This document shows, one piece after another, positions 7,588 through 50,735 of a stretch of DNA of 64,000 nucleotides; the stretch's first letter is position 1, and each line of letters begins with the position of its first letter. The notes under the pieces were generated by a model. That model saw only the letters and a list, made by a program, of their open reading frames with translations, searched no databases and was not told the origin of the DNA. Made by a program: the position numbers and the translations under genes. The stretch comes from Bacteroidaceae bacterium (GTDB lineage Bacteria > Bacteroidota > Bacteroidia > Bacteroidales > Bacteroidaceae): assembly GCA_017379075.1 (NCBI GenBank), contig JAFNXL010000015.1, positions 62,001 through 126,000 of the forward strand. The letters are read 5' to 3'.

Positions 7588-7631
7588 GCATGGCATGGAA
7601 AAACACACGGCATGGCGTGGGAGAAAATTTT
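7588..7631. repeat. 22-base-period tandem repeat, 2 copies
   Basis: Copies begin at 7588 and 7610. The first reads GCATGGCATGGAAAAA and the second GCATGGCGTGGGAGAA, differing by three A-to-G changes in 16 bases. Each contains the dyad CATGGCATG or a variant. The step is exactly 22 bases, as in five other arrays of this window. Confidence 0.7.
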
Positions 7632-7886
7632 TCCTCGCGACACAAAAAACAGAGACGCCAAATACTGAAAGACTTGACAGTAATAAATTTTTACAAGTAA
7701 GCAAAGATTTGCCATTTTGCAAAGGACTTGCAAAAAATCGCAAATGCACAAAACAGATAACGCTTTGTTTATCATATATATAAAACATTCGTTTTGCGTT
7801 TTTGCATTTTTGCATGATTTCTTTTATGCGGTTTAATGGTGATAAGGACACAGTTTCTTTCCATACGCCACCAATAACAGAAGGCG

Positions 7887-7928
7887 AAAAAAAATCCCCA
7901 CAACAACCATTCTGTGCTGTGGGGATTA
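7887..7928 (-). terminator. Intrinsic terminator after rpoC
   Basis: On the minus strand a stem of ATCCCCACA (7926-7918) pairing with TGTGGGGAT (7902-7894) and a 15-base loop is followed by a run of eight T. It lies 26 bases after the rpoC stop and closes the ribosomal protein/RNA polymerase operon. Confidence 0.9.
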
Positions 7929-7953
7929 GTTTAATTATATGGGATTACGTTGA

Positions 7954-10900
7954 TTAGTATTCCATGTCATCAAGCACTGCCTTGCGGTGTGCTGCCACAC
8001 GTTCAAAGTCTTCGCGGTTTCCGACAACAATCTTATCGAACTCGCGCAAACCGGTTCCAGCAGGGATGAGGTGACCGCAGATTACGTTCTCCTTCATACC
8101 TTCCAGACGGTCGCTCTTGCCGTTGATGGCGGCTTCGTTGAGCACCTTGGTGGTTTCCTGGAAGGACGCGGCAGACATGAAGCTGCTTGTCTGCAATGCT
8201 GCACGAGTGATACCCTGAAGAATCTGGGTTGAAGTGGCGGGCATAGCATCACGCACCTGAACAAGCTTCAAGTCCTTACGCTTGAGCATAGAGTTCTCGT
8301 CACGCAGTTTTCTTGCGGTAACAATCTGGCCCTTCTGCATGTTCTCAGAATCTCCGGCATCCACAACGACCTTCTTGCCCCAGATCTTGTCATTCTCTTC
8401 GAAGAAGTCGAGCTTGTCCACCACCTGCAGTTCCAGGAAGTTGGTGTCGCCGGGTTCATTGATCTGAACCTTGCGCATCATCTGACGTACAATAACCTCA
8501 AAGTGCTTGTCGTTAATCTTTACACCCTGCAAGCGATATACGTCCTGAATCTCATTAACGATATATTCCTGAACGGCTGTGGGACCCTTGATGGCCAGGA
8601 TGTCAGCAGGCGTGATGGCACCGTCGGACAGAGGAGTTCCGGCACGAACATAATCGTTTTCCTGTACCAGAATCTGCTTGCTCAGAGGCACAAGGTACTT
8701 GCGTACATCGCCAACCTTGCTGGTAACAGTAATCTCGCGGTTTCCGCGCTTCAGCTTGCCCATGGTAATCTCTCCATCGATTTCTGACACCACAGCAGGA
8801 TTGCTGGGGTTACGTGCCTCGAAGAGCTCGGTAACACGGGGCAGACCTCCGGTAATGTCACCGCCACCACCAACAACACGAGGGATCTTAACCAGTACAT
8901 CACCGGGCTTGACAACCTGATTGTCCTCGATGACAATATGTCCACCGATGGGCAGGTTGTAGGTACGGATCAGTTCACCATTTTCATCCAGAACGTGTGC
9001 GGCAGGCACCTTATTCTTGTCGCGGGATTCAATCACGATAAGTTCGCGCAAACCGGTTGTTTCGTCGGCTTCAACACGATAAGTTACACCTTCGATTACA
9101 TTCTCGAACTTGATGCGTCCGGCGGCCTCGGTAACGATTACAGCGTTGAAGGGGTCCCACTTGGCTACCACTTCGCCCTTAGTTACCATCTCTCCGTCCT
9201 TCTTATACAATGTACATCCGTAGGGAATGTTCTGGCTCAGCAGGATAATTCCGGTGTTTACGTCCACAAAGCGGACTTCGGCCAAACGGCCTACAACCGT
9301 CATGGCTGCCTTGCCCTCATCGTCTGTAATGTCCACAGTACGCAACTCTTCAAACTCAAGACGTGCGTCATACTTGGCCTTAATCATGGCATTTGCCGCT
9401 GCATTACCGGCCACACCACCGGCGTGGAACGTACGCAGAGTAAGCTGGGTACCGGGCTCACCAATTGACTGAGCGGCAATGACACCAACAGCCTCACCCT
9501 TCTGAACCATACGACTGGTGGCGAGATTGCGGCCGTAGCACTTCATACATACACCGCGCTTGCTTTCGCAGGTAAGCACAGAACGGATTTCCACACTTTC
9601 AATGGGGCTTTCCTCAATTTCCTGTGCCTTGGCTTCTGTAATCTCATCACCGGCAGCACAAATGAGTTTTCCTGTTGTGGGGTGAATGATATCGTGAACG
9701 GAAACACGTCCGAGGATTCTGTCATAGAGGCTGCTGATAACCTCGTCACCGTTCTTCAGAGCGGTGCAGACAAGTCCGCGCAAGGTTCCGCAGTCTTCTT
9801 CATTGATAATCACATCATGACTTACGTCAACAAGACGACGGGTCAGGTATCCGGCGTCGGCAGTCTTCAAGGCGGTATCGGCAAGACCCTTACGGGCACC
9901 GTGGGTACTGATGAAGTATTCAAGCACGCTCATACCTTCCTTAAAGTTAGAAAGAATGGGGTTCTCAATGGTCAGAGGTTCGGCACCTGCCTTCTGGGGC
10001 TTTGCCATCAGACCACGCATACCAGACAACTGGCTAATCTGACCGGCACTACCACGGGCTCCAGAATCAAGCATCATGTACACGGCATTGAATCCCTGGT
10101 CGGCCTCTTTCATTGTCTTCATCAGAATGGCAGAAAGGTCGTTGTTAACGTGGGTCCAAGTGTCAATAACCTGGTTGTAACGTTCCTTGTCTGTGATGAA
10201 ACCCATTCCGTATTCAGAAGCAATACGCTCAATTTCCTCGTTACCCTTACGGATGAGTTCTTCCTTTTCTTCGGGAATGATAATATCGCCCAAGTTGAAT
10301 GAAAGTCCACCTTCGTAAGCAAGTCTGTAACCCAAATCTTTAATACCATCAAGGAATTCGCAAGCACGGGCCACACCTACTGTCTTGATAACGTCTGTAA
10401 TGATACCACGCAAGGTTTTCTTAGAAATCACATCATTGAAATAACCCACTTCTTTGGGAATAATTTCATTGGCAATTACACGGCCTACTGATGTTTCCAC
10501 CATGCGCTTGCCCAATGTGCCGTCTTCCATCAGGTCATCAACGATTACCTGAACAGGAGCATGCACATCGACACGCTTTTCGTTATATGCGATGATAGCT
10601 TCTTCGGGACCATAGAACTTAAGACCGGCTCCCTTGGCTCCGGGACGAATCTTTGTAATGTAATACAATCCGAGCACCATATCCTGTGAAGGCACGGTAA
10701 TGGGGGCGCCGTTGGCAGGGTTCAAGATATTATGCGACTGCAACATGAGCAACTGTGCCTCCAAAATGGCCTCGTTACTCAAAGGCAGATGGACAGCCAT
10801 CTGGTCACCGTCAAAGTCGGCATTGAACGCTGTACATGCCAGAGGATGGAGCTGGATGGCCTTTCCCTCGATCATCTTGGGCTGGAACGCCTGGATACCT

Positions 10901-12240
10901 AGACGGTGCAGTGTGGGGGCACGGTTGAGCAATACAGGGTGACCCTTCATTACATATTCCAAGATATCCCAGATGATGGGGTCTCTACGGTCAACTATTT
11001 TCTTGGCGCTCTTTACGGTCTTTACGATTCCGCGCTCTATCAGCTTACGGATAACAAAAGGCTTGTAAAGTTCTGCAGCCATGAGTTTGGGCAGACCACA
11101 CTCGCCCATCTTCAACTCGGGACCAACAACGATAACCGAACGGGCAGAATAGTCTACACGCTTACCGAGAAGGTTCTGACGGAAACGTCCTTGTTTACCC
11201 TTGAGGGAGTCAGAGAGAGACTTCAGAGGACGGTTGGAGTCGGTCTTCACAGCACTGCTCTTGCGGCTGTTGTCAAACAAGCTATCCACAGCTTCCTGAA
11301 GCATGCGCTTTTCATTACGCAGAATTACTTCGGGGGCCTTGATTTCCATCAGTCTCTTCAGACGGTTATTTCGGATAATCACTCGACGATAAAGGTCATT
11401 CAAGTCGCTGGTTGCGAAACGACCGCCATCAAGAGCAACCAAAGGACGCAATTCTGGTGGGATAACCGGCAGGATGCGCATGATCATCCACTCTGGTTTA
11501 TTGCGTTCACGGCTATTACGGAAGCTTTCCACAACCTGCAGGCGCTTCAACGCTTCAGTCTTACGCTGCTGTGCGGCATCGCTTCCGGCTGTATCGCGAA
11601 GCTGGTATGAGAGTGAGTCCAAATCAATACGGGTCAGAAGGTCATAAATTGCCTCTGCACCCATCTTGGCAATGAACTTATTTGGGTCTGAATCCTCCAA
11701 ATAAGCATTATTTGAAGGCAGACGGTCCTGAATTGCCAAATATTCGTCCTCAGAAAGCAAATCGTATTCTGCAACGGGCATTTCCTTATCTTTAGCCATT
11801 ACACCAGCCTGGATGACCACATAACGTTCATAGTATATGATAGCATCAAGCTTTTTGGTGGGCAAACCTAAAAGATAACCTATCTTGTTAGGCAAAGAAC
11901 GGAAATACCAAATATGAGCTACGGGTACCACCAACTGGATGTGACCGCTACGCTCACGGCGTACCTTCTTTTCTGTTACCTCTACACCACAACGATCGCA
12001 AACGATTCCTTTATAACGGATACGCTTGTACTTTCCGCAATGACATTCATAGTCCTTTGTCGGACCAAAGATGCGTTCGCAGAACAAACCGTCGCGTTCA
12101 GGCTTGTAAGTACGGTAATTGATGGTCTCAGGTTTGAGCACCTCTCCGTAAGAATCCTCCAAGATCTTTTCTGGAGAAGCCAAACCAATGGTAATCTTAG
12201 TAAAGTTATTTTTTACCTTTGTTTCTTTCTTGAAAGCCAT
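7954..12240 (-). CDS. rpoC: DNA-directed RNA polymerase subunit beta'
   Basis: 1428 aa, the length usual for Bacteroidota beta'. It forms the catalytic cleft with beta. Visible are the N-terminal zinc ribbon ([19 protein letters not shown], about residues 66-84), the catalytic magnesium motif NADFDGDQM (about 471-479) with three aspartates, and the second zinc cluster around [16 protein letters not shown]. The trigger loop region and the C-terminal SAAS.QETTKVL segment are intact. It starts 21 bases after rpoB and is followed by a strong terminator. Confidence 0.99.
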
Positions 12241-12261
12241 AATTATTGATATTTACAAGTC

Positions 12262-15200
12262 TTAATCCAATGTTACACTCAATCCCAGGCCACGCAGTTC
12301 GTGCAGAAGCACGTTCAAAGATTCGGGAATACCTGGTGTGGGCATGGGTTCACCCTTAACGATAGCCTCATATGCCTTGCTGCGACCTACAACATCGTCA
12401 CTCTTGACAGTAAGGATTTCCTGCAATACATGACTTGCGCCGAAGGCTTCGATTGCCCAAACTTCCATTTCTCCGAAACGCTGTCCACCGAATTGTGCCT
12501 TACCACCCAAAGGTTGCTGTGTAATAAGTGAGTACGGTCCAATGCTACGGGCATGCATCTTGTCTTCAACCATATGACCCAACTTAAGCATGTAGGCGAT
12601 ACCTACTGTTGCCAACTGGTCGAAGGGCTCGCCAGTTGCACCATCATACAACTGTGTTGAGCAATAACGGGGCAGTTCAGCTTTGTCAGTCCATTCGTTC
12701 AAGTCTTCAAGATGTGCTCCATCGAAAATGGGAGTAGCAAACTTGACACCCAACTTGCGTCCAGCAGCACCGAGAACGGTCTCGAAAATCTGACCGATAT
12801 TCATACGAGAAGGCACACCCAGGGGGTTCAACACAATATCTACGGGTGTTCCGTCTGCCAAGAAAGGCATATCCTCCTGGCGTACGATCTTGCTGACAAT
12901 ACCCTTGTTTCCGTGGCGTCCAGCCATCTTGTCTCCTACACCAATCTTACGTTTCTTGGCAATATAAACCTTAGCCATCTGGATGATACCAGAGGGAAGT
13001 TCATCACCGATTGTGATAGCAAACTTGCGACGCTTCATTTCTGCATCCAACAACTTGAATTTCTTCAAATAGTTGATTATAAGCTTGCTTATCAGTTCAT
13101 TGGCATGTTCATCGTTTGTCCAGCCGCTCAGCTGAACAGCGGTATAGTCAAATGTATCAAGAGCACTAGCGGTAATATTAGCACCCTTTGCAATCAGCTC
13201 GGCACCCATATAATCCTTGACTCCCATGCTCTTAAGTCCCTTTGTCAATTCAAGAAGTTTGTCAATCAGAATCGCCTTCAAATCGGCAACCTTTGTCTTG
13301 AACTCATCATCAATAGCGAGCAGGCGAGGCTTATCCTGTGCCTTAGCTGCACGTGTCTTGATGGCACGGGAGAACAATTTCTTGTCAATTACCACACCAC
13401 TCAAAGAAGGACTTGCTTTCAAAGAAGCATCCTTAACGTCACCGGCCTTGTCTCCGAAGATTGCACGAAGCAATTTTTCTTCGGGGCTGGGGTCGCTCTC
13501 TCCCTTAGGTGTAATCTTACCAATCATAATATCACCGGGAGAAACACGGGCACCGATACGGATAATACCATTCTCGTCCAAATCCTTTGTGGCTTCTTCG
13601 CTCACATTGGGAATGTCAGAAGTAAGTTCTTCCATACCACGCTTGGTCTCGCGAACTTCCAAGTTGAACTCTTCAACATGAATACTTGTAAGAATGTCTT
13701 CGCGTACCACACGTTCGTTCAACACGATGGCGTCCTCATAATTGTATCCCTTCCAAGGCATATATGCCACCAAAAGGTTCTTACCCAAAGCCAATTCTCC
13801 GTTCTCTGTACTATATCCTTCTGTCAGGATCTGACCCGCAACAACTCTGTCTCCCTTATTGATGATGGGACGGAGGTCGATGGTCATGTTTTGATTGGTA
13901 CGACGGAACTTGGGTATGCGGTATTCTTTAAGAGAGGGTTCAAAACTTACAAACTCTTCGTCTTCAGTGCGATCATACAGAATGCGGATGGTTGTTGCAT
14001 CAACGTATTCAACAACACCATCACCTTCGGCTGTAATCATTGTACGGCTGTTCTCACAAACTTGACGTTCGATACCTGTACCAACAATCGGAGCTTCTGA
14101 ACGCATCAAAGGAACTGCCTGGCGCATCATGTTAGATCCCATCAACGCACGATGGGCATCATCATGCTCCAAGAAGGGGATGAGACCGGCAGCAATACTT
14201 GCAATCTGCTGCGGTGCAACGTCCATCAAGTCTACATCAGATGGGGGTACCACTGGGTAATCGTCATCCTGACGACACTTAACCTTGGTACGGATAAATG
14301 TTCCATCTTCATTCAAAGGAGCATTACCCTGGCCGATGATCTGACCTTCCTCTTCTTCTGCAGTCAAGTAGCGGATTCCTTCATCACTCAGATCCACGAC
14401 ACTATCCTTAACGACACGATAAGGAGTTTCAATGAAACCAAGATCATTAATCTTTGCATATACACATAATGAAGAAATCAAACCAATATTGGGGCCTTCA
14501 GGGCTTTCGATAGGACAAAGGCGGCCATAATGAGTATAGTGTACGTCACGAACCTCAAAACCGGCACGTTCACGGCTCAAACCACCAATACCAAGAGCTG
14601 AAAGACGACGCTTGTGTGTTACCTCTGCCAATGGGTTGGTCTGATCCATGAACTGGCTCAAGGCATTCGTTCCAAAGAAACTGTTGATTACACTACTGAT
14701 GGTTTTAGCGTTAATCAAATCTGCAGGTGTGAACACTTCGTTGTCACGAACATTCATGCGTTCGCGAATAGTACGGCTCATACGAGCCAGACCTATTGCA
14801 AACTGATTGCTGAGCTGCTCACCTACGGTACGAACGCGTCTGTTACTCAAATGGTCAATATCATCGACATTGGCTTTACTGTTAACCAATTCAATGAGAT
14901 ACTTGATAATTTCAATGATGTCCTCACGAGTCAGTACGCGCACTGCTGGATCAATGTCCATATTCAGCTTGCGGTTGATGCGGTAGCGACCAACATCGCC
15001 CAAGTCATAACGCTTGTCACTGAAGAAGAGGTTGAAAATTACTTCTTTTGCACTGGCATCGTCAGCAGGATCAGCATTTCTCAATTGACGGTAGATATAA
15101 GTAACAGCTTCCTTTTCACTATTACTTGTATCCTTCATCAAGGTATTGAAGATTGTGCTGTAATCGGAACTTCCGCTTGATTCTTTGTGGATGAGGATAG

Positions 15201-16074
15201 TACTTACATTGCTATCGAGGATGATTTCAACAACATCTTCATCAATGAGACGTTCACGCTCAAGAACCACTTCGTTGCGCTCTATAGAAACCACTTCACC
15301 GGTTTCTTCGTCTACAAAGTCTTCATTCCATGTTTTCAGGACACGAGCGGCCAACTTATGTCCGATATGTTTCTCGATATTTTTACGGGTAACCTTAACT
15401 TCTTCTGCAAGGTCAAAAATCTCAAGAATATCTTTATCAGACTCATAGCCGATTGCTCTTAACAGAGTGGTCACTGGCAACTTTTTCTTACGGTCAATGT
15501 AAGCATACATGACATTATTAATGTCGGTAGCAAATTCAATCCAGCTACCCTTAAAAGGAATGATACGCGCACTATACAATTGCGTACCGTTAGCATGTAT
15601 GCTGCTTCCGAAGAAAACACCAGGTGATCTATGCAACTGAGAAACCACAACGCGCTCAGCACCATTAATCACAAATGTACCGTTCTCTGTCATGTAAGGG
15701 ATGGGGCCCAGAAAGACATCCTGGATCACAGTGTCAAATTCAACATGGTCAGGGTCGGTACAATATAATTTCAGTTTTGCCTTCAAAGGCACACTGTATG
15801 TGAGACCTCGTTCAAGACACTCATCAATTGTGTAACGAGGGGGATCAATATAATAATCCAAGAACTCCAGAACGAAATTATTCCGGGTATCATTGATAGG
15901 GAAATTCTCACTGAATACCTTATACAAGCCATCGTTCTTACGAAGTTCTGGTGGTGTATCTAATTGTAGAAAATCCTTAAAGCTCTTTAGCTGCACATCC
16001 AAAAAATCTGGATATGGCATAGGATTTTTGACTGTTGCGAAATTAACTCGCTGATTAATGATGTGTGAAGCCAT
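12262..16074 (-). CDS. rpoB: DNA-directed RNA polymerase subunit beta
   Basis: 1270 aa. The rifampicin-binding region is seen around residue 460 ([20 protein letters not shown] followed by HKRRLSALG), with the wild-type-like Q, D, H and R positions. The fork and C-terminal clamp segments ([32 protein letters not shown]-like) are intact. The gene follows rplL after 103 bases containing a terminator-like hairpin, so its expression relative to the ribosomal proteins may be set by partial read-through, as in other bacteria. Confidence 0.99.
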
Positions 16075-16113
16075 CTAAACTCAGTTTGTGGGTATTGAAA
16101 AGTTTATAGACAC

Positions 16114-16151
16114 AAAAAGGTAAAGGAACCTCTACCAGAGGCACCTTTACC
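16114..16151 (-). terminator. Attenuator-like hairpin between rplL and rpoB
   Basis: On the minus strand GGTAAAGG pairs with CCTTTACC (arms 16151-16144 and 16126-16119), with an inner CCTCT/AGAGG stem, then five T. It has intrinsic-terminator form but sits inside the operon, where partial termination is well known in other bacteria. Confidence 0.8.
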
Positions 16152-16177
16152 GTATATCCTGTTTACCAGGAAAGATC

Positions 16178-16555: not shown

Positions 16556-16602
16556 TTTATTCTAATTTTTTTATTTGTTGATACTAATTGAAAATTGTGA
16601 AA

Positions 16603-17127: not shown

Positions 17128-17144
17128 GACTTTCGTAAAATTAA

Positions 17145-17843: not shown

Positions 17844-17862
17844 TTTAAATTGAAGTTAAAAA

Positions 17863-18303: not shown

Positions 18304-18357
18304 TTTTATTATCTTTTAATATTTAATTTTTGAAGCTGAGTGCACGTAACAAATACA

Positions 18358-18915: not shown

Positions 18916-18930
18916 GATCTCTTTACCTAT

Positions 18931-19128: not shown

Positions 19129-19145
19129 AATTTTATCTATTTTAG

Positions 19146-19218: not shown

Positions 19219-19223
19219 AAGAG

Positions 19224-19262: not shown

Positions 19263-19287
19263 ATATTGACTTATATCAGTGTGTCAA

Positions 19288-22578: not shown

Positions 22579-22698
22579 ATAATTCCGTTTATTTCTGCCC
22601 GATGTCGCTATATTTTTAGCCGCCGATGTCATGTATACGGCAAAGGGGCGTCAACGGGAAGCTCACGATTTTGCCGCCAGCGTCATCGTATTTTTTAT

Positions 22699-22736
22699 TT
22701 TCCTCCCGAGGAAATATTTTTTTCCTCCCGAGGAAA
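22699..22736. repeat. 22-base-period tandem repeat, 2 copies, self-complementary
   Basis: TTTCCTCCCGAGGAAA occurs identically at 22699-22714 and 22721-22736, a step of exactly 22. Each copy is a dyad: TTTCCT and AGGAAA around CCCG. The copies are separated by TATTTT and sit directly beyond the mdh terminator. Confidence 0.85.
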
Positions 22737-22737
22737 A

Positions 22738-27866: not shown

Positions 27867-27954
27867 CTTTAAAAAGTCAACAGCTTGAGTTGGGCAACAC
27901 AATGCATTGCGTTGCCCAATGCAACAGCATGCATCAGCCAATACAATGCACTGC
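27867..27954. repeat. 22-base-period tandem repeat, 3 clear copies plus a degenerate one
   Basis: Units begin at 27889 (GTTGGGCAACACAATGCATT), 27911 (GTTGCCCAATGCAACAGCAT) and 27933 (ATCAGCCAATACAATGCACT), each followed by GC. A weaker unit at 27867 shares CAACAGC in register with the second. Nested dyads GTTGGGCAAC and CAATGCATTG are present, and TTGGGCAAC (27890-27898) is repeated inverted as GTTGCCCAA (27911-27919). The array ends 13 bases beyond the alpha-galactosidase stop. Confidence 0.75.
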
Positions 27955-27966
27955 GATTATTTGGGG

Positions 27967-39026: not shown

Positions 39027-39061
39027 ACACACATTATAATAATATAAAGAACAAGTCATCA

Positions 39062-41660: not shown

Positions 41661-41678
41661 AACAAATCTCTTTATAAT

Positions 41679-42746: not shown

Positions 42747-42775
42747 TATTACGATATTTCGTTCCGTTTCAACCG

Positions 42776-42783
42776 CAAATTTA
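42776..42783 (-). promoter_or_regulatory. -7 box for the DUF1573-meaB pair
   Basis: Minus strand TAAATTTG, 30 bases before the DUF1573 start; the upstream -33 position reads TTTC rather than TTTG. Confidence 0.5.
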
Positions 42784-42861
42784 CTTCATTTTTTCCATAT
42801 CCGAAAACTTATGGCACACATTTCCCCTCCCACTCATTACTTTTGCGTTTACACACAATGC

Positions 42862-42897
42862 AGAAGAGCCGGAGAACATCCGTCCCCCGACTCTTCT
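42862..42897 (-). terminator. Hairpin after the BlaR1-like gene
   Basis: AGAAGAG (42862-42868) and CTCTTCT (42891-42897) form a stem extended by GG/CC and one wobble pair. No T run follows on the minus strand, so terminator function is uncertain. Confidence 0.4.
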
Positions 42898-42932
42898 ATG
42901 CCAGACTTTTTCTTCCATCAATCATCGTATAC

Positions 42933-44978
42933 TTAGTCCATCCGTGTAAATTGTTTCCGCACGTCTTCGCTACCATTGAATTTATAGCACTCGTTCATTA
43001 TCCTTACCATTTCAGGATAGTCGTCCTTAAACATCTTGTTAAACCGGTTCAAATGCTTGCCATACGTTTGTACGTGATAAGGTGCTGACCAATAAAATGA
43101 CCAGAATGAGGTTTGGACGTCACTGGAACGTCTGGAGAGTTGTTCCATAAAGTTTTCCATGTCCTTCTCCATAAACTTGTGGAGTACCGTTTGCAGATAA
43201 TTCGGTGCGTCAGCATCCAGCACCGCTCCAGTGGCCAGGTCAATCAGACGGTTCAAATACGCATCCTTGTTAACAAGCGTCAGTTTGTTACCGAACATTT
43301 GCAACTGTTCATATCCCAGGTCATACATAATCCTGTCTATTCCAGATTTATCAAAACTGTACAGGTTAATAAATTCTTGCCAGTTTTTGGGGAAAGCATT
43401 GAAATAGGCTTGTTGCCACACCTGTATGTTTATATTCTTCACCAAATTACGATAAGCCGTATTAAGTTTCAACGTATCCACAATAAAGGCATTAGCCGAT
43501 TTGGGCGGTGCATTCTGAATTAGGCCCGACGAATGTAACATCATCCAAAGTTTCTCATACTCCTTCCCTGTCTTTTCTGATACCACTCTTCGCTTGGATG
43601 AAGATTCTTTATGCCGGTTTGCTGATTTAGTAGAATGGAAATCTACCGTTGTACTATAGAAATAGACTGGATGAACATCCGATGCGTGTCTTGTGTAGTA
43701 CAGATAAGTCTCATTTATCAGTTTGTCCAGTTCTGCTGCCGATGCAGACACATCTGTTACAAGTATCACAAACGTTGGATTCAATTTCCTTAGATGGCCA
43801 TAGACGGAAGACAAATAACCGGGTTCTATACGTTGCTTTCCGTTACGATACATGACATCTCCCCACCTGTTCATCAATACGTTTACAACTTCACTCTCCC
43901 TGATCTCTTTCGGAAACAATTTGAGGTTCTTCGCATATCGGCTACTTGCCTCTTCCATTTCCTTGATTTTGCTGATGCCAGGTTCTAGAACCGGATTCTC
44001 TTCCTTTACAGGTAGCTCCTCACTGCTTTCTGTCCGGGCAAAAGAAATGGCAGCGACAAACATTACAGCAGGCACAAAAGCGGCTTTCAGCATTCTCATT
44101 CCATTTGTTTTTTTCTTGTTCATCATAATGATTCTTTCTTTTAACGTTCCATGATTCAGCCGATGAGCAATAGTCTGCAGCCTGCTGCCTACGGTCCTGG
44201 TCACCAATAATTGTTGATATATGTTCGCATTTATTCCATTGTCAAGTACAGCCTTGTCCGCCTCGTATTCATGTACAGACCGCAAGTCTCGTCCAAGCAG
44301 ACAGACCACCGGATTGAACCATTGCAGCATGGCCAGCGCCTCCAGCAACAGGATGTCCCACGAATGTCCCATACGGATGTGTGCTTGTTCGTGCGCCATT
44401 ACAAGAAAACGCATCTGATCATAATCCTTTGTGCTGATGATGATATGACGCATGAAGCTACGTGGGGCGAAGTCCCCGGAAAAGATTACCACATCATTGC
44501 CAAATTCGTCCTCCAAGTGCATTCCGCCTTGCAGGCAACGATATAATTCCCATATCTGACGGAGGAATCTGGTCAGCATCAAGGCTACACCTGCCAAATA
44601 TATAATCATCCAAATGGGAATGGCGGTATGCCATGACACATTTTCCTTCTGTTGTGTGAATTGCGGCACGGACACAGTCGTTTCTTCTGCGATCAAAGGA
44701 ACTGTCTCGTCTACCGTACCAGCAGGCATGGCCTTTTCTACCACCATATCTTCCGTAAACTGTTTTTCTTGCAATTCGTAAATTGGCTTCAAGGGATACT
44801 GTACTATCCAGGTGTCCTTGACTGTTATCTCTACAAGAGGGAACAAAGCCGACACCAACATGATAGCAAGCAAAACCATACGATTGAAACGGTGGAAGGT
44901 CTCGCGTCTGAGCAACAAAGCATAGCAACCGTAAAGCAACACGAGCAACAGGGAAGATTTAATAAGATAGGCGAGCAT
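42933..44978 (-). CDS. BlaR1/MecR1-type M56 membrane metallopeptidase sensor
   Basis: 681 aa. Membrane helices near residues 5-22, 35-50, 105-130 and, after the peptidase segment, about 295-315; zinc motif MAHEQAHIRMGHSWD (HExxH near residue 194) followed by E in LLLEALAMLQWFNPVVCLLG. BlaR1 proteins cleave BlaI on a signal. The C-terminal 350 residues lack the penicillin-binding SxxK/SxN sensor of true BlaR1 and are not recognised. It is paired with a BlaI repressor (32-base gap), so it probably senses another envelope signal. Confidence 0.88.
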   Translation of the reverse strand: MLAYLIKSSLLLVLLYGCYALLLRRETFHRFNRMVLLAIMLVSALFPLVEITVKDTWIVQYPLKPIYELQEKQFTEDMVVEKAMPAGTVDETVPLIAEETTVSVPQFTQQKENVSWHTAIPIWMIIYLAGVALMLTRFLRQIWELYRCLQGGMHLEDEFGNDVVIFSGDFAPRSFMRHIIISTKDYDQMRFLVMAHEQAHIRMGHSWDILLLEALAMLQWFNPVVCLLGRDLRSVHEYEADKAVLDNGINANIYQQLLVTRTVGSRLQTIAHRLNHGTLKERIIMMNKKKTNGMRMLKAAFVPAVMFVAAISFARTESSEELPVKEENPVLEPGISKIKEMEEASSRYAKNLKLFPKEIRESEVVNVLMNRWGDVMYRNGKQRIEPGYLSSVYGHLRKLNPTFVILVTDVSASAAELDKLINETYLYYTRHASDVHPVYFYSTTVDFHSTKSANRHKESSSKRRVVSEKTGKEYEKLWMMLHSSGLIQNAPPKSANAFIVDTLKLNTAYRNLVKNINIQVWQQAYFNAFPKNWQEFINLYSFDKSGIDRIMYDLGYEQLQMFGNKLTLVNKDAYLNRLIDLATGAVLDADAPNYLQTVLHKFMEKDMENFMEQLSRRSSDVQTSFWSFYWSAPYHVQTYGKHLNRFNKMFKDDYPEMVRIMNECYKFNGSEDVRKQFTRMD

Positions 44979-45010
44979 GGCTTTTTGTGTTTATATTATT
45001 ATTAATGTAG

Positions 45011-45388
45011 TCAGCTGGGAGTATTCCCCTTTATCATCTCCAGCAGCTCCACAATCTCATCCTCGGAAAGGTCCTCGTTCTGTACAAGGAAGGAAAACAA
45101 CTTCTTAGCAGAGTTACCAAACAAGGCATCCTTCACGTCATTCACCACATCCTTGATGTATTTGTCACGGCTCATAGTGGGAGAAAAACAGAAAGTGCGA
45201 ATCTCGTTTGCCCTTTTGCAGTGCGAAACATAACCCTTAGCCTCAAGTATCTTCAGGAAAGTACTTACGGTGGAATAAGCGGGTTTGGGATCAGGATATT
45301 CCGCTATAATTTCATACACAGATAGAGCTTTTTCATGTCCCCATAAGATATTCATCACTGCAATCTCTGCTTTGGTCAGCGGTTTCAT
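45011..45388 (-). CDS. BlaI/MecI-family transcriptional repressor
   Basis: 125 aa from the ATG at 45388 (MKPLTKAEIAVMNILWGHEK); an ATG at 45406 is an alternative, and the longest frame from 45457 would start upstream of the predicted transcription start. Winged-helix domain (ALSVYEIIAEYPDPKPAYST) then the dimerisation part with the cleavage-region-like EIRTFCFSPTMSRDKYI. It should repress its own operon until its M56 partner acts. Confidence 0.93.
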   Translation of the reverse strand: MKPLTKAEIAVMNILWGHEKALSVYEIIAEYPDPKPAYSTVSTFLKILEAKGYVSHCKRANEIRTFCFSPTMSRDKYIKDVVNDVKDALFGNSAKKLFSFLVQNEDLSEDEIVELLEMIKGNTPS

Positions 45389-45421
45389 TTGTCTTATCTT
45401 TATCATATTTTCCGTCAAATG

Positions 45422-45468
45422 ATGTCTTACATTTGCAAAAGTATCTGGTTTGCGCATCGGTCAACAAA
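45422..45468 (-). promoter_or_regulatory. Promoter and candidate operator of the BlaI-BlaR1-like operon
   Basis: Minus strand: -33 TTTG (45465-45468), 21 bases, -7 TACTTTTG (45436-45443). Immediately after it lies the 11-base dyad ATGTaagACAT (45432-45422), positioned where a BlaI dimer would block the polymerase. The operator assignment is inference. Confidence 0.6.
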
Positions 45469-45604
45469 AAACATTCGCAAAAAATGAAAAGACGCCTGTT
45501 TTTTAACATTTTTATTTAGATTAACGAATTTGCTTAACATTCGTTAACGCATCGTCGCGATAAAATTGACTTTTTGGACAGCGTATGAATATACTTTCCT
45601 CAAC

Positions 45605-45670
45605 AAGCTATCTCCTCAGGCAAGATAAGCTATCTCCTCAGCCCAAGTAAGCTATCTTACTTTTTTCTGC
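45605..45670. repeat. 22-base-period tandem repeat, 3 copies
   Basis: AAGCTATCTCCTCAG occurs at 45605 and 45627, and AAGCTATCTTAC at 45649: steps of exactly 22. The second and third copies carry dyads at their start (AGATA-AGC-TATCT at 45623-45635; AAGTAAG-CTAT-CTTACTT at 45645-45662). The last copy runs into TTTTTT, giving a plus-strand terminator-like form. Confidence 0.85.
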
Positions 45671-45722
45671 CATTTTTCCCAGTGTCTTTTCCTAATTTCA
45701 GTAGACGGTTTTGTTGAGGACA

Positions 45723-46847
45723 TCATAAGGATATGAATTTCCCATCACGCATTATCCATTTCTTGTCACTACTGGAAATATAGATATCTTTTCCATTCAT
45801 TGAAAAAGTGATAGATTTAAGATTTTCAGTAATGGATTCGTTTAACGGAATCCAATCTATAGGGCGGCCGTCTTTATGGTAAGATATAGCATACAGACGA
45901 CTATTTTGCATAGAAAACCCTTCTTCATCGCTTATATCTCCCATAGCAATAAAAGCAATGTCATTCTTTTCTAAACTTACTTTTGAACAAGCGGCAAATA
46001 TCGCATCAACATTATATAATTCACAATCTCTTGGCGCATCCGGAATATAATATAATGAGGGTATACTTTCATGATCCAAAACAACGGCCTCCCCATTATA
46101 CGGATATCCATTCCCTTGCAATGTGCGTGGGAAAAACGACCAAAATTTCCTCATTTGTTCCGGGAACGTCCATGATTCTGGTACACCGGACTTCTCTGGT
46201 ATTCTGATAATCGGAGAAAAATGGTAGTTGATTTCTTTCTCGATTTTTCCGTCTTTCGTGATCGTGAATTTGTTTTCAGGTAAAACGCTGTCTGATGATT
46301 CGTGTTGAACAACAATATGATTCTCACCGGCATTATATGTCGCCTGAAAAGACAAATCATTGTCATCCTCATAACCTAACATAGCACAGTCTATGGCTTC
46401 CCCGTTTTCTTTGTATGTAATCATTGCTAAACCAGAGTATTCACATTGCCATTTGCGCGGTTCGTTATTTGTTTTAAGAAACAATGTTAAATGTTTATCT
46501 TTATGTATGTAATATCCAGGTGTGAAATACATATCCCAGTTGTTATCCTTGTCATACAATTCATTTGGGATAAAGACCTTGCATATTGAATCCGGAATAG
46601 AACTAGGTTTAATATTCTTTGGCAAGAATACTGGTTTACCATCCTGTATGGGAATCTCTTTGGTCTCTTGGAAAAGAGTCAGGAAATTCAAGAAATGTTC
46701 TTTTTCAACACAGTCATAAAGACTTCCCTTGCATACGGTGTCTGTGTCAAAAATACGTTTTGCGTTTCCTACAAAGTTGGAAAAATCTTGTCCCATAACT
46801 GATATAGGACATAAGGCAAGGACTAAAAGAATTGCGACAATATTCAT
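45723..46847 (-). CDS. Unrecognised exported protein
   Basis: 374 aa with a signal peptide ending at about MGQD (residue 20). No family recognised. It is rich in aromatic and charged residues, with segments such as MYFTPGYYIHKDKHLTLFLK, YNVDAIFAACSKVSLEKNDI and FSMNGKDIYISSSDKKWIMR suggesting beta structure. It is the last gene of a run of four co-directional unknowns (21-base gap to the next). Base composition is more AT-rich than the surrounding core genes. Confidence 0.7.
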   Translation of the reverse strand: MNIVAILLVLALCPISVMGQDFSNFVGNAKRIFDTDTVCKGSLYDCVEKEHFLNFLTLFQETKEIPIQDGKPVFLPKNIKPSSIPDSICKVFIPNELYDKDNNWDMYFTPGYYIHKDKHLTLFLKTNNEPRKWQCEYSGLAMITYKENGEAIDCAMLGYEDDNDLSFQATYNAGENHIVVQHESSDSVLPENKFTITKDGKIEKEINYHFSPIIRIPEKSGVPESWTFPEQMRKFWSFFPRTLQGNGYPYNGEAVVLDHESIPSLYYIPDAPRDCELYNVDAIFAACSKVSLEKNDIAFIAMGDISDEEGFSMQNSRLYAISYHKDGRPIDWIPLNESITENLKSITFSMNGKDIYISSSDKKWIMRDGKFISL

Positions 46848-46868
46848 AATTTCTCGAATACAGATTTT

Positions 46869-47417
46869 TCACTGCAAGCCACGTTCCATCAATTTAAAAA
46901 TAATAATTGTTGAGCTTATTACCCAGATGAGCGTAATAAGATGCCATACAATGTGTTTCTTTCGTGTTTCCTTTTCAAACTTTTTGAAATATTTCTCAAA
47001 TTTATTTTTTTTCTCTGTATAAAACCAATTGGCGAGCATTACACAGAACCCCAATGAGAAATATATGATTTTTGTATACGTTTTCATATCGCCTTCGGCA
47101 TACCAGTTTTCACGTCCTGTCAATATCGTAAACAGATAGAATAACACGATACTGGTCATGATCAGACTTACCATCATTACCCTATCTGAGAGCCTTCTAC
47201 GATAAAAAGTCGGGTCCTTTCTTTTATTATCTTTATAGGAAAACATTTGTTTGTACTCTTCCACGGTATATCCCAGCTTCTTTAATCTTTTTACGACAAA
47301 TGGCAATTTGTAAAAGCAATTGTCAAAGAGCCAATTAATGGGTTTGTCTAACGGATCCATATTCGCCCATTTAAAGATAGAATAATATAGTCTGTTATAT
47401 AATTCTTCAATAATCAT
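46869..47417 (-). CDS. Unrecognised membrane protein with three helices
   Basis: 182 aa. A cytoplasmic-looking N-terminal 80 residues (IIEELYNRLYYSIFKWANMD, FVVKRLKKLGYTVEEYKQMF) is followed by helices near residues 80-100 (VMMVSLIMTSIVLFYLFTIL), 118-135 and 160-178, with a highly basic loop (TEKKNKFEKYFKKFEKETRK) before the last. No family recognised. Its start overlaps the previous gene's stop by four bases (ATGA). Confidence 0.7.
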   Translation of the reverse strand: MIIEELYNRLYYSIFKWANMDPLDKPINWLFDNCFYKLPFVVKRLKKLGYTVEEYKQMFSYKDNKRKDPTFYRRRLSDRVMMVSLIMTSIVLFYLFTILTGRENWYAEGDMKTYTKIIYFSLGFCVMLANWFYTEKKNKFEKYFKKFEKETRKKHIVWHLITLIWVISSTIIIFKLMERGLQ

Positions 47418-48259
47418 AATTTTATTATTTTACTTTTGCGTTTATAGCCAGAGCCTTCAGGAAAATCTTTCTCCAAGGCTAATCCAAACTCATCTTCATA
47501 CTGGTCTCTCCAGGATTTTAACTCGATGGGAGTAGGAATATGAAGCATTTCAATAAACTCAAGCAAGTTTTCGTATTTTAATGGGCCATATAAGTCCGTT
47601 TTTGTGCGGCTGACAATCCAATAGTAGGATTTTTCGCTATCAAAGATTTTCCTTTGTCCTTTAAGATCGTACCTGCATAACGGATATTCTTTAACGGGCA
47701 TGCCATCAACCTTTCTCCCTGGCCTCAAATGCGAGAGTCCTAATATGTCACCTGGATTTTTAACTTCTACTATTAACCAATTTTTTTCAAAAGAATATCG
47801 TTGAACATATCCAATATTTATCTTCTCGCTTAACGTGGTCCTTTTCCCAGATGGTTCACATGCAACGAAGCTGATTAAAGTGTCAACGTGCCCATCAGTT
47901 CTGTGTACCGGGATTTTAACTTTTACGCAAGGCCATGATAGATATGTTTTTGCATAAACATCTTTTACTAAAGTGTCTCTGGTCTGCCACAAATTAGCGG
48001 GCGATGTTGGGAAAATAACGGAGTCGGTGCTGTTGTCAAAAAAACAACTGTCAATGTCTGATGACAAACATAGCCGCGGATTCTCCAATTCAAAAAGATT
48101 CCATCCCACACTCGGCATATCATAAGTCCCTTCTTTTGCAAACCAATCATTCAAACTGGCAATAGCCCACACGATCATAATGGCTATATACAAAAATGGA
48201 AGGGAAAAAATAAAAATAAATCCTCCTGCAATAAGCCAGTTTCTCACTTTTCTTTTCAT
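47414..48259 (-). CDS. Unrecognised membrane-anchored protein
   Basis: 281 aa. One N-terminal helix (LIAGGFIFIFSLPFLYIAIM) then a periplasmic body with several tryptophans and a few cysteines (RLCLSSDIDSCFF, SWPCVKVKIP, FVACEPSG). No family recognised. It is translationally coupled to the next membrane protein and lies 42 bases after the gene before it. The pattern of small paired envelope proteins resembles orphan immunity or toxin-neighbour genes, but no toxin is present. Confidence 0.7.
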   Translation of the reverse strand: MKRKVRNWLIAGGFIFIFSLPFLYIAIMIVWAIASLNDWFAKEGTYDMPSVGWNLFELENPRLCLSSDIDSCFFDNSTDSVIFPTSPANLWQTRDTLVKDVYAKTYLSWPCVKVKIPVHRTDGHVDTLISFVACEPSGKRTTLSEKINIGYVQRYSFEKNWLIVEVKNPGDILGLSHLRPGRKVDGMPVKEYPLCRYDLKGQRKIFDSEKSYYWIVSRTKTDLYGPLKYENLLEFIEMLHIPTPIELKSWRDQYEDEFGLALEKDFPEGSGYKRKSKIIKL

Positions 48260-48301
48260 GGAAGTGCTAACCTAATGTGTAAAAAATGACATGACGCTAT
48301 C

Positions 48302-48883
48302 TTAAGGGATGTTTGAATATTTTCTTTTCAATGTAGTTAGGTGAATTAGGGGCGCATCGTATGCAAATTCTTGTTTATAACAATCATTCGTTTCCGTAGT
48401 AATATACACATTGTCATATTCTTTATCTGTATCGGGAACATATAGCATCAATTTTTGGTTGGCAAAAGGTTGCCACACCCCTTTAGAAGGAGACGCAACT
48501 TCGTACCATCCAGTTACATTATTGTTGTAACGCTTTCTTTTGTTGGAATAAACTATATAGTTGACCCAATAGCAGAGCAGGTCATAGCTTGTTGATGCAG
48601 AGAAATATAATAAGAAAACATTTTCTTCTCTTTCTTCAATTTGTGGTCTTTCAACTGGGGGACTTCCACCATCTGCATTTATCTTAATAAAATCCTCTAT
48701 GGCAATATCTACTTCAGATTTTTCCATATTCGTAGTCATTATAACTCGTTTGCCATTTGGCATTTCATCTTTTATCAATTGGTTCATAGTTGCATAGCGC
48801 TGTTTTCCCCTTTTATTACGCATAACAAAAGAAATCATGATTATTGCAAAAAGTATTGCTACACCTAAAAGAATGTTTTTCAT
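48302..48883 (-). CDS. Unrecognised single-helix membrane-anchored protein
   Basis: 193 aa. N-terminal anchor (MKNILLGVAILFAIIMISFV) followed by a basic segment and a soluble domain with many tyrosines (DLLCYWVNYIVYSNKRKRYN, KQEFAYDAPLIHLTTLKRKY). No family recognised. It is the first gene of the four-gene run. No clear -33/-7 promoter was found before it. Confidence 0.65.
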   Translation of the reverse strand: MKNILLGVAILFAIIMISFVMRNKRGKQRYATMNQLIKDEMPNGKRVIMTTNMEKSEVDIAIEDFIKINADGGSPPVERPQIEEREENVFLLYFSASTSYDLLCYWVNYIVYSNKRKRYNNNVTGWYEVASPSKGVWQPFANQKLMLYVPDTDKEYDNVYITTETNDCYKQEFAYDAPLIHLTTLKRKYSNIP

Positions 48884-49127
48884 TACGTTTTATTTTTGTG
48901 AATTCAACGAATTATAAGTGTTTATAGGGTAATTAGCGAAAATTGCAGCAACATATCGTATTCAATTACAAACAATAATCACGATGCTCACCGAGGACAA
49001 AGTTACTGAATTATTCTGTATCGCAGATAATTTCTGCAAGTTTTTTGCTAAGATGAGGCAAAATATACGCTGAAAAGCGAAGCCTTATTCCTGTTATCTC
49101 AACTAAGTTTCAAGTCCCACTGAAGCG
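48884..49127. other. Gene-poor spacer containing a transposase remnant
   Basis: About 240 AT-rich bases between two unknown genes. Apart from the short plus-strand open frame at 48984-49073, which resembles a transposase N-terminus, nothing recognisable was found: no inverted ends or target duplication. Confidence 0.5.
48984..49073 (+). pseudogene. N-terminal remnant resembling an IS982-family transposase
   Basis: A 29-codon open frame, MLTEDKVTELFCIADNFCKF onwards, resembles from memory the start of Bacteroidota IS982-type transposases (MLTEDKVTEIFCMADDFCKFF style), then stops. The remaining ~270 codons are absent. If right, it marks a past insertion inside the accessory patch. Recognition is by memory of the family, not by alignment. 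Confidence 0.45.
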
Positions 49128-49820
49128 TCATTCATACCATGTTGAATATCTGTTTTGGCATTCAATTTCAGAAGGAATCGAACGGTCAATCCTTTTCAGA
49201 CTGTCCAATGAGATTTTGTGGAATGTAAAATCTACCCAAGGAAGGTTCTTGGATTTACAATTACGCTTGTCAAAAAATATCATGTCGCCTTTCATAATAC
49301 CCTTGAAGGCGATGCTGTCTTGAAATCTGTCAATATGCAACCATTGATGACCGCCCATATCCTTAGCTTCTTGCCAAGAATGTATGCTGATACATATCGG
49401 TGAACTGAAGTATTGAGTTCCTCTTGTGTCTACACAGAAATAGATGCTGTCATTTGAAACTCTCAAGTCTTTCAACTGAGCCACAAAATAGCCTTGGTAA
49501 TACCCGTCTTCTCTCATATCGTCGAAATGGTCTGTGCCACCCCACATATACCCATCTATGAGTCTCCCATCAGTATAATCCAGTTCGATGATTTCAGAGT
49601 ATAACCCAATCTCGCATTCCGGCACTGGATTGGAAAGATAGAATGACTTTTTAACAGATGATGTTATTCCATTCACGCCAACAGAATCGGTTGTAAGTTT
49701 TTGAGAAGAATATGCCAATGGCAAATTTTTCTCTATCGTACCTGAAAAAGTGGTTTTGTACACAGAAAATACAACAAACAGTAATAAGATAGTGGAAAAT
49801 ATTAGGATGAAACGTTTCAT
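49128..49820 (-). CDS. Unrecognised membrane-anchored or exported protein
   Basis: 230 aa from the ATG at 49820 (MKRFILIFSTILLLFVVFSV); the upstream start at 49874 lies within the -7 box. One N-terminal hydrophobic helix (signal or anchor), then a soluble domain with SIYFCVDTRGTQYFSSPICI, SIHSWQEAKDMGGHQWLHID. No family recognised. It has a strong promoter. It lies within the AT-rich accessory patch. Confidence 0.7.
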   Translation of the reverse strand: MKRFILIFSTILLLFVVFSVYKTTFSGTIEKNLPLAYSSQKLTTDSVGVNGITSSVKKSFYLSNPVPECEIGLYSEIIELDYTDGRLIDGYMWGGTDHFDDMREDGYYQGYFVAQLKDLRVSNDSIYFCVDTRGTQYFSSPICISIHSWQEAKDMGGHQWLHIDRFQDSIAFKGIMKGDMIFFDKRNCKSKNLPWVDFTFHKISLDSLKRIDRSIPSEIECQNRYSTWYE

Positions 49821-49871
49821 AATATAGTTATCTTTGTTCCTATTAATACTTAGACGAGTTTTTTTGTGTCG

Positions 49872-49903
49872 CAAATTTATGGATAATAATTATGCCAACC
49901 AAA
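49872..49903 (-). promoter_or_regulatory. Promoter of the unknown gene ending at 49128
   Basis: Minus strand: -33 TTTG (49900-49903), 20 bases, -7 TAAATTTG (49872-49879), about 52 bases before the chosen start. Full consensus. Confidence 0.8.
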
Positions 49904-50042
49904 AGAATAATAGTATTTAACACACAAAAACATGGGATTTGATGAATACATCATATACGAGTTGTGAAATGTTACATATTGGGGCTGAAAATGCGTTCAA
50001 CGTTTGATGTCATTCGGACGCTGCACGCAGACGTCCCTACCC

Positions 50043-50112
50043 TCTCATTGCTCATTGCTCACAACTTATAACTCATAACTCAAAAATCTGTCGCATCTGC
50101 GTCATCCGTGTG
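50043..50112. repeat. REP-like intergenic repeat, copy 1
   Basis: A run of CTCATTG/CTCATAACT words leads into CTCAAAAATCTGTCG followed by 9-base units ATCTGTCGC, ATCTGCGTC, ATCCGTGTG. The core begins at 50079; copy 2 begins exactly 400 bases later. Confidence 0.7.
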
Positions 50113-50177
50113 CCAATGAAAATTCTTTACAAAACCGTATTTTTGTATAAATCCAGCAGGAAAGTCGAAAGTGCCCA

Positions 50178-50265
50178 GTTGGAAAATTTTTATTTCCCTG
50201 TTGGAAAATTATTTTTTCTCAGTTGGAAAATCAAATTTTCGCAGTAGGGCAATATTAGACGACTT
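50178..50265. repeat. 22-base-period tandem repeat, 3 clear copies plus a degenerate fourth
   Basis: GTTGGAAAAT begins at 50178, 50200 and 50222; a degenerate GTAGGGCAAT begins at 50244. All steps are exactly 22. The intervening 12 bases are T-rich and differ between copies, but they fold back on the conserved part (GGAAA with TTTCC in copy 1; GAAAAT-CAA-ATTTTC in copy 3). Confidence 0.9.
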
Positions 50266-50352
50266 TTTGGTTCGCTTTTGAACTATTCCAAGCGGTTTTT
50301 GTTCATTTTGACACCATGTGCGGTTCGGCAGTTAAAAGTAAAAATGTTTGAC

Positions 50353-50386
50353 AGTGAGCGATGAGTGATGAGTCTTGAGTTATGAG
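50353..50386. repeat. Inverted partial copy of the REP-like block
   Basis: GTGAGCGATGAGTGATGAGT then CTTGAGTTATGAG is the reverse complement of the CTCA-rich part of copies 1 and 2. With copy 2 it forms an inverted repeat around about 65 bases. Confidence 0.6.
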
Positions 50387-50449
50387 TTTTTTCGACAAAA
50401 GAACAGAAGGACATGTTTTCTCTTTTGAATCTTATGTTCTTATGTCAAA

Positions 50450-50512
50450 TCTCATTGCTCACGGCTCACTACTCACTACTCAAAAATCTGTCGTATTTGC
50501 GTCATCGGCGTT
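50450..50512. repeat. REP-like intergenic repeat, copy 2
   Basis: CTCATTGCTCACGGCTCACT then CTCAAAAATCTGTCG and 9-base units ATCTGTCGT, ATTTGCGTC, ATCGGCGTT. It diverges from copy 1 at scattered positions. Confidence 0.7.
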
Positions 50513-50647
50513 CCATTGTCCACATTTGTCAAAAAACAAGAAAAGGGGATTTTGGACCGAGTGAAGAAAATCCAAAAATTACCAACCCTCTTATAGTCAA
50601 GCAAATACAAAACCATGAAAAACTCTTCGAAAACACACAAAAAAAAG

Positions 50648-50735
50648 ACTTAAGTGTTTCTTGAGTTTTACTTAAGTCTTTCCGAAGTAACACTTAAGTG
50701 TTTCTGCAAAAACACTTAAGTGTTATTTTTGGATA
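50648..50735. repeat. 22-base-period tandem repeat, 4 copies with a palindromic core
   Basis: ACTTAAGT begins at 50648, 50670, 50692 and 50714, always followed by GTTTC or a one- to two-base variant. All steps are exactly 22. ACTTAAGT is a perfect palindrome. The variable half (about nine bases) differs in each copy. The array ends 38 bases from the waaA stop. Confidence 0.92.

Follow-up and report, generated by a model that had tools for sequence, protein, structure and literature searches.

Arrays of short motifs on a 22-bp pitch are the cores of dispersed non-coding repeats in a Bacteroidaceae bacterium

Why should six intergenic arrays built from different motifs all repeat at a step of exactly 22 bases? 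The question is raised by a 64,000-nucleotide stretch of the genome of a Bacteroidaceae bacterium (GenBank assembly GCA_017379075.1, contig JAFNXL010000015.1, positions 62,001 to 126,000; G000:C12:62001-126000 in our numbering, and hereafter the window), for which a preliminary description had reported such arrays. We find that they form the cores of dispersed non-coding repeats. At a probability of roughly 0.4, we take these repeats to make up a large class of elements that evolves quickly in the spacers of Prevotellaceae, in which the repeated units would be helically phased protein sites.

Six arrays on a common pitch

Copy placement in the window recovers all six arrays. Together with the elements that contain two of them and one adjoining gene they are listed here, with family letters (A, B, C, F1, F2, G, H and K in this text) coined in this analysis.

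7588..7642, unstranded: array F1, GCATGGCRTGG twice at 22, then TTTTTCCTCGCGA; between rpoC (7954-12240, minus) and an HlyD-like gene (6179-7384, minus), neighbours named by Pfam.
22695..22736, unstranded: array F2, TTTTCCTCCCGAGGAAA twice at 22; 75 bp beyond the stop of a lactate/malate dehydrogenase gene (Pfam).
27889..27955, unstranded: degenerate array belonging to family H, made of three 22-base blocks of the GCAATGCATTGC type; 11 bp beyond a gene stop.
45605..45657, unstranded: family G array, AAGCTATCTCCTCAG, two full copies and one partial copy at 22; from Tandem Repeats Finder (TRF) and copy placement.
50118..50353, plus: C-element with 5' end GAAAATTCTTTACA, a CCAGTTGG array at 22 and 3' end GTAAAAATGTTTGACA; from the alignment of C copies.
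50174..50248, plus: 22-step array of the C-element, three strong and weak outer copies; from TRF and copy placement.
50524..50756, minus: A-element, 233 bp, with 5' end GAAAAATCTTTACA, four 22-step units, T8, a variable stretch and 3' end CTTGTTTTTTGACAAAT; from the alignment of 21 own copies.
50646..50727, minus: units of the A-element, four 22-step ACTTAAGT; in sense, units 3 and 4 pair over at least 12 bp as a stem ahead of T8; from alignment and folding.
50774..52006, minus: kdtA-like gene (Glycos_transf_N, Pfam); the A-element begins 17 bp past its stop, in sense.

The copies vary in quality. Array 7588 has two, matching the motif at 11/11 and 10/11 positions; array 22699 has two identical 16-mers; array 27889 is weak, its blocks being mutually alike at 12, 13 and 16 of 22 positions; array 45605 has two identical 15-mers and a partial third copy; array 50178 has three identical 10-mers with a weak 7/10 copy on each side; and array 50648 has four copies. 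All pairs of adjacent copies that could be placed lie 22 apart (11 pairs, or 13 with the weak outer copies), which bears out the step though not the count of 14 of 14 first given for it. TRF finds period 22 at 45605, 50174 and 50648 only. By codon-scored gene calls the arrays do lie between genes, although short unscored open reading frames (ORFs, at least 80 aa) overlap three of them (7588, 27889 and the start of 50648). In the window and six other loci of the same genome, no array matched Rfam above gathering score; at that level the window holds five tRNAs, and the six other loci hold one tRNA and one thiamine pyrophosphate (TPP) riboswitch, none of these at an array.

When ORFs of at least 80 aa are masked and exact 7-mer matches are counted at each lag from 8 to 69, the window spacers yield 45 matches at lag 22 and 14 at lag 44, and at most 7 at any remaining lag. 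Across 300 dinucleotide-preserving shuffles of these spacers, lag 22 reaches a mean of 0.58 and a maximum of 6, and no lag exceeds 12. Window coding DNA has 4 matches at lag 22.

The same signal is present in an own-genome sample of 37 stretches (674 kb including the window, about 22% of a 3.0-Mb genome in 106 contigs). Counting 8-mer repeats in spacers, with background lags that exclude 21-23, 41-45 and 66, we find 43 at lag 22 against a background mean of 2.4 and maximum of 14. Near relatives (22 loci) have 26 at lag 22 against a mean of 1.2 and a maximum of 15 (at lag 14), and Prevotella-type loci (32) have 18 at lag 22 and 30 at lag 21 against a mean of 4.0 and a maximum of 34 (at lag 14). 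The 24 loci from other Bacteroidales show no lag-22 peak (4 against a mean of 2.7); their repeats at lag 23 (12) and lag 46 (11) stem in part from 23-base arrays in loci L104 and L127. Part of the period-21 signal of the Prevotella-type loci consists of 7-base repeats and is removed by a sub-period filter, and the raw lag-14 peaks look like the product of the same source. A crude ORF mask leaves 21 "coding" events at lag 22 in the own sample, where nearby lags not divisible by 3 have 4-14; these events are probably arrays under spurious ORFs. A lag scan had been named beforehand as the test that could overturn the observation; run on about 22% of the genome, it did not, and the period stands as the common feature, its excess concentrated in spacers.

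A census of array periods was made with codon-scored genes, dropping low-complexity and short-period arrays and those lying at least 30% in called genes. Period 22 accounts for 25 of 55 arrays in the own sample (4 are at 21, 3 at 23, 3 at 44 and 12 at 41-42), for 3 of 5 in two sister loci and for 12 of 25 in the near relatives. Among 31 arrays in Prevotella-type loci, 9 are at 21 and 10 at 22. Genome by genome, 7/14 are at 22 in G016, 3/8 in G017 (with 2 at 23) and 1/2 in G031; G026 has 4/15 at 21 and none at 22, and other Bacteroidales have 0/17 at 22. By kdtA, the closest of the named relatives are metagenome-assembled genomes (MAGs) filed as Bacteroidaceae or Prevotellaceae. Since the genomes of isolates (Xylanibacter brevis, L103; Prevotella koreensis, L097) carry such arrays too, they are not merely a matter of MAGs. 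The own spacers also contain long tandem arrays of 41- or 42-base units, a class different from the 22-step arrays (L010 1785-2103 and 19794-20000; L024 10406-10781; L034 12329-12457; L038 11623-11817; L006 18331-18657).

Dispersed families and the question of mobility

The preliminary description had held that the motifs are not shared and form no dispersed family. A search with short degenerate patterns (one substitution allowed, spacing 22 or 44) contradicts this: outside the window the six motifs recur in the own sample at 3 (F1-like two-copy blocks), 6 (F2), 6 (H), 1 (G), 7 (C) and 3 (A) places, and 54 control counts (six motifs at nine other lags) total 2. The single recurrence of G is a match in L017 on contig C31; similar places lie on C28 and C31. 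By eye there are about eight recurrent motif families in the own sample, and others in each relative looked at. Searches of the own genome placed family A at 21 sites (two with a partial or weak match), family B at 11, and the array part of family C at 29, each place counted once. With these matches and recurrences, the six arrays can no longer be regarded as unrelated single events.

The families differ in anatomy. The A-element measures about 230 bp and has sharp ends; its four units at 22 are followed by a T-run, then by a middle part that varies and a 3' end that is conserved. The C-element has a 5' end resembling that of A and a 3' end TTTGACA, and mixes CCAGTTGG and CCAACTGG forms. In the B-element, whose 5' end is TTTTTACATCA, 8-bp spacers separate GTAAnnnnnnTTAC units that keep GTAA/TTAC and vary in their inner bases. 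Dyads of the form GTAAAn4-5TTTAC occur at both C-element ends in L241 and L242, and at the 5' end also in L237 and L243-L245; the same dyad type builds the B units. TTTACA and TTTGACA were considered as universal element ends: they occur together in 4/37 own arrays against 2/1654 random spacer places, and are not universal because they are limited to a few families. Family K belongs to another species of the same genus (genome G017) and consists of AACCAGTSACTGGTT plus 7, with 17 aligned places; its copies are 84-100% identical, several of them 97-100%. Unit number is 3 or 4 in A and higher in some K copies.

Several array families stand side by side in one spacer as a mosaic in some loci (L014 16680-17620, L035 200-910, L024 15570-16030, L017 15690-16050), and A and C elements are often near each other. 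Runs of 7-base repeats (GAGTGAT / CTCATTG type) occur in the window at 50044-50082, 50355-50387 and 50465-50482, by a repeated GATGACGCAnATnCGACAGATTTTTGAG stretch; they sit between or beside the window A- and C-elements, and also after several other A copies.

Dispersal of this kind raises the possibility that these are selfish, non-autonomous mobile elements whose 22-step units are multiple sites for a transposase acting in trans, much as the ends of Tn7 and Mu carry multiple 22-bp transposase binding sites. We regard this as unlikely. It would account for dispersed copies with sharp ends (A, C), for the similar ends TTTACA (A) and TTTGACA (C), and for near-identical K copies at many G017 loci, five of which (L323, L324, L327-L329, out of 17) have only the array in common with the rest. 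It would also fit the restriction of families to species: family A is present in two sister MAGs (the genomes behind L070 and L092) and has no match in 40 relatives searched. However, the A units are conserved at orthologous insertions while the remainder of the element decays, unlike a dead transposon; by eye there are no clear inverted ends or target duplications; and no cognate transposase was found. Nor is there an empty A, B or C site in about 68 kb of aligned sister pieces (drawn from 392 kb of G041 plus L070, with overlaps counted twice). In G041, unit 1 of one A array (L304 ~11660-11850) is interrupted by 189 bp whose inverted ends are GGTTCTAAAAATT and which CTTAAG borders on either side; the own-genome copy, L208, is without this sequence.

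A more specific version is that the arrays are repetitive extragenic palindromic (REP) sequences or bacterial interspersed mosaic elements (BIMEs) spread by REP-associated tyrosine transposases (RAYTs, TnpA-REP), one RAYT to each motif family. The arrays are indeed often palindromic, mostly extragenic, species-restricted and clustered; a 22-step array immediately precedes a RAYT-like gene in L082 and comes after another such gene in L343, and relatives of the L082 protein occur in 18 of 40 relatives. This 350-aa RAYT-like family (L082 14254-15306 and loci L343-L372) has an MPDHxHG-type motif, a long C-terminal part, no Pfam match and a match to NCBIfam NF047646 below cut-off, and some relatives have several copies of it. 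Against such an origin, the own genome has no relative of the L082 protein at E<=1e-5 and two Y1_Tnp proteins for many families; the Y1 protein on contig C69 is flanked by a different palindrome, and neither Y1 locus has a 22-step array or the B unit motif. Among 23 RAYT-like loci inspected with 220-bp flanks, dyad 22-step arrays occur only at L082 and L343, which by estimate is no more than array density predicts; L344 has in its flank a two-copy 22-step repeat without obvious dyad, and a 24th entry, L151, has no match. A scan without gene mask gave 9 of 32 loci with an array of period 21-23 or 43-45, several of them inside genes. With no L082-type RAYT and no arrays at the Y1 loci, a RAYT/REP origin is not supported for the own genome, and we hold it to be very improbable. 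At L151 1405-1944 (G000:C69), the Y1-type transposase-like protein lies between direct repeats of a stretch that contains the palindrome CAGGCGAATTTCGAAATTCGCCTG.

Constraint on the units, RNA folding and gene context

How, then, might one pitch be held by many motifs? The fixed step of unrelated families suggests that one shared mechanism sets the spacing. On the protein-site reading, a core would repeat a short motif, often a dyad, a few times (four in A), each copy exactly two helical turns from the next; this pitch, 22 bp in most families and 21 or 23 in some, would be kept because a putative DNA-binding protein, probably a dimer in the dyad families, occupies successive sites on one helix face. 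Bound arrays in spacers may serve as roadblocks, insulators or aids to termination, chiefly where transcription units end; new loci would be seeded by some process, and copy number could change by whole units.

The step is strict in two families: 132/132 in A (45 copies, 42 with four units found and 3 with three) and 32/32 in B (11 copies). Distances beyond the A array drift, with 7/39 copies off the common 28 nt on the 5' side and 14/41 off the common 118 nt on the 3' side. The comparison of orthologous places, made for family A, has flank figures that include misaligned stretches, single pairs being up to 34% different. At 11 places in G041, the unit octamers differ at 3/344 positions (0.9%) and the stretches between units at 10/451, against 202/1428 in the 3' part of the element and 1116/10643 in the flanks (some of it misalignment), that is, 10-14% around the units. 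At 5 places in G042, the figures are 1/160 for octamers, 18/210 between units, 177/649 in the 3' part and 1375/5265 in the flanks. A single indel event falls inside the arrays (a foreign insertion, L288) and none between units, against 57 and 39 in the flanks.

These data bear on a purely mutational origin, in which slippage or template switching with a ruler of about 22 nt produces the arrays without function. The sister locus L070 lacks one A unit of exactly 22 bp, and the long 41/42-bp arrays in the same genome would also suit such a process; yet the spacer letters of A diverge while units and step persist, and the octamers have about ten times fewer differences than the flanks. We consider this the most improbable of the explanations. 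The idea, raised at the outset, that a 22-base tract is copied does not by itself explain conserved A units amid diverging surroundings at orthologous sites, and the other suggestion made then, a protein reading one face of the DNA, is compatible with a step kept at 22 despite changing spacer letters and with a pitch kept by other motifs in relatives.

Turnover of motifs on the pitch is seen near kdtA. After the family 9 gene, which follows kdtA, near relatives carry different arrays: GTCCCATRCRTGGGAC in L072, GAAGGCCTAGGCCTTATCG in L077 and L080, AAGACCTAGGTCTTATCG in L078, CGAACCATGGTTC in L081 and ACCGTAGCTTACGG in L082, the motifs of L077, L078 and L080 looking related. Eight loci have gene 9 and a called right neighbour; six of these have arrays, and L076 (26-bp spacer) and L086 have none. 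The immediate right neighbour is the same (family 8) in four of the eight (L078, L081, L082 and L086), three of which have arrays, with differing motifs. The family 9/family 8 spacer of L082 also contains the RAYT-like gene. Directly 3' of kdtA, the own lineage has ACTTAAGT, L083 TTTCCCACGTGTGGGAAA and L088 CACGCCACGTG.

An alternative to protein sites is that the arrays work as RNA, as bidirectional terminators or 3'-end protecting hairpins, with palindromic units that pair with their neighbours on either strand, and 22 being stem plus loop; we judge this somewhat unlikely. Family A speaks for it. In A RNA, units 1+2 and units 3+4 give two hairpins, the second followed by T8. An upstream gene was called for 17 of the 21 copies; the element is in sense in 15 of these, and 8 of the 15 start within 18 nt of the stop. 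Family A thus has the hairpin and T-run, in sense after a gene, of an intrinsic terminator, and its units may well serve as tandem hairpins terminating the upstream gene in addition to any binding of protein. Families B and C have no clear sense bias (4 sense and 5 antisense for B, with 9/11 callable; 9 and 6 for C, with 15/26) and, by eye, no conserved T-run after the array. Folding is strong in A (z = -7.6), B (-7.0), K (-9.4) and L081 (-6.4), moderate in C and L088 and weak in L073, and array 45605 folds at the level of shuffles (z = -0.3 and -1.0). Moreover, the L088 array lies after a separate strong hairpin with its own T-run, and hairpins do not need an exact 22 common to unrelated families.

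Covariation was tried as proof of RNA structure in A, on 37 distinct cores out of 44 copies. The cores are too conserved for such a proof; the pairs do no better than independence save for a few in units 3-4. A G-G mismatch in unit 2 is uncompensated in 28/37 cores within the unit and in 27/37 against unit 1. Judged from the letters, this mismatch, the kept outer bases of B and the lack of sense bias in B and C would fit sites read in DNA better than RNA pairing, and we count them for the protein-site reading.

Of 92 arrays, 32% have a strong dyad (score at least 6) and 39% a score of at least 5; shuffled consensuses reach these scores in 2.7% and 7.6% of cases. The early statement that most units have dyads is borne out in part, and several G016 arrays have none. 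Arrays of other periods reach a score of at least 6 in 21% of 53 cases against 4.4% shuffled, so some of the excess is not special to period 22.

Gene context was scored for arrays in spacers below 1500 bp with both neighbours called (n = 79). There is a moderate excess in convergent spacers (28 against 18.8 expected by length), which would suit RNA elements as well as bound proteins at transcription-unit ends; 38 arrays are co-directional (43.3 expected). For K, none of the 12 places with both neighbours called is divergent.

It should be noted that a number of observations weigh against phased protein sites. Two thirds of the 92 arrays lack a strong dyad, and the A, B, F2, K and L081 arrays fold far below shuffles (z from -5 to -9), as an RNA role would also give. 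Thirteen of the 79 placed arrays are divergent (16.9 expected by length), the 38 co-directional ones divide evenly, 19 lying closer to a 3' end and as many closer to a 5' end, and only A and K show more than a weak preference for gene ends. Steps in C are looser (41/59 at 22, 10 at 23, 2 at 21 and 6 at 44), to which the motif pattern used may contribute. The conservation figures come from family A, and those for its flanks are inflated by misalignment. No array-binding protein or mobilising enzyme was identified, and the many motif families per genome would need either many specificities or a protein that reads shape.

If the protein-site reading is taken one step further, the arrays may represent an undescribed class of chromosomal spacer elements in Prevotellaceae, in which unrelated families have converged on one architecture independent of sequence, with sites every two helical turns, and motifs are replaced between species while the pitch is kept; we put this forward as a doubtful, tentative proposal. 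Were it true, one would expect gene boundaries to be organised by a shape-reading factor or by DNA-binding proteins from a rapidly co-evolving family. A pitch constant to the base while the letters change, in a single genome as well as over a genus, would point to a shared constraint on the geometry of spacer DNA and offer a concrete route to the factor, and predictions of transcript ends and terminators in a major gut lineage would have to account for these elements.

Comparison with known systems

None of the known families compared here matches the arrays in all its defining features; in action we liken them to BIMEs and BOX elements. We found no account in the literature of 22-step arrays in Prevotella or of a pitch common to unrelated families, subscription papers lying mostly outside the search.

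According to PMC2817692, REPs are extragenic palindromes present at more than 100 per genome that aid Rho-dependent termination, and BIMEs bind gyrase and IHF; in Stenotrophomonas BIMEs, the length of the inter-REP segment varies substantially. Like BIMEs and REPs, the arrays are often palindromic, mostly extragenic, clustered, regularly spaced and species-specific. Unlike them, they have short units on one 22-bp pitch over many families. The arrays are mostly extragenic and multi-copy, yet at 11-29 places per family; their spacing is regular, and symmetric units give no readable orientation by which alternation could be scored. A cognate RAYT flanked by the same palindromes was not seen in the own genome, where both Y1 loci were inspected.

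BOX elements of Streptococcus pneumoniae are, according to PMC3049150, dispersed, with distinct ends around a tandem middle module of variable number. The A- and C-elements are likewise built of conserved ends with a tandem module between them that varies in copy number, a likeness of architecture only and not of sequence kinship: the sequences are other ones, and BOX is one family, whereas here many unrelated families share one pitch.

A parallel in the same bacterial order is BrickBuilt, a miniature inverted-repeat transposable element (MITE) of Porphyromonas gingivalis, for which PMC4596501 gives an intergenic location and 1 to 22.8 tandem repeats of 23 nt between leader and tail; for strain W83 it also reports 41-, 23- and 22-nt tandem repeats, PgRS having 41-nt repeats. 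Location and repeat length are similar, but BrickBuilt is one motif family, and its insertion sequence IS5-type inverted ends (GAGACC...GGTCTC), as given in Table 2 of that source, are not apparent to the eye where the ends of A and C are aligned. As for MITEs in general, families A, B, C and K are dispersed non-coding copies, and the sharp A ends show no clear inverted repeat by eye.

Protein sites about every 22 bp, or two helical turns, are familiar from iterons and from the ends of Tn7 and Mu, which are specific to a replicon or a transposon and have one motif each. Family A, the one family searched there, has no match in plasmid and phage collections. LytTR direct-repeat sites, which have a period of 21-22, were an early candidate. 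Dispersed bacterial repeats usually come as one sequence family with one transposase or one bound protein; here, there are many families on one pitch.

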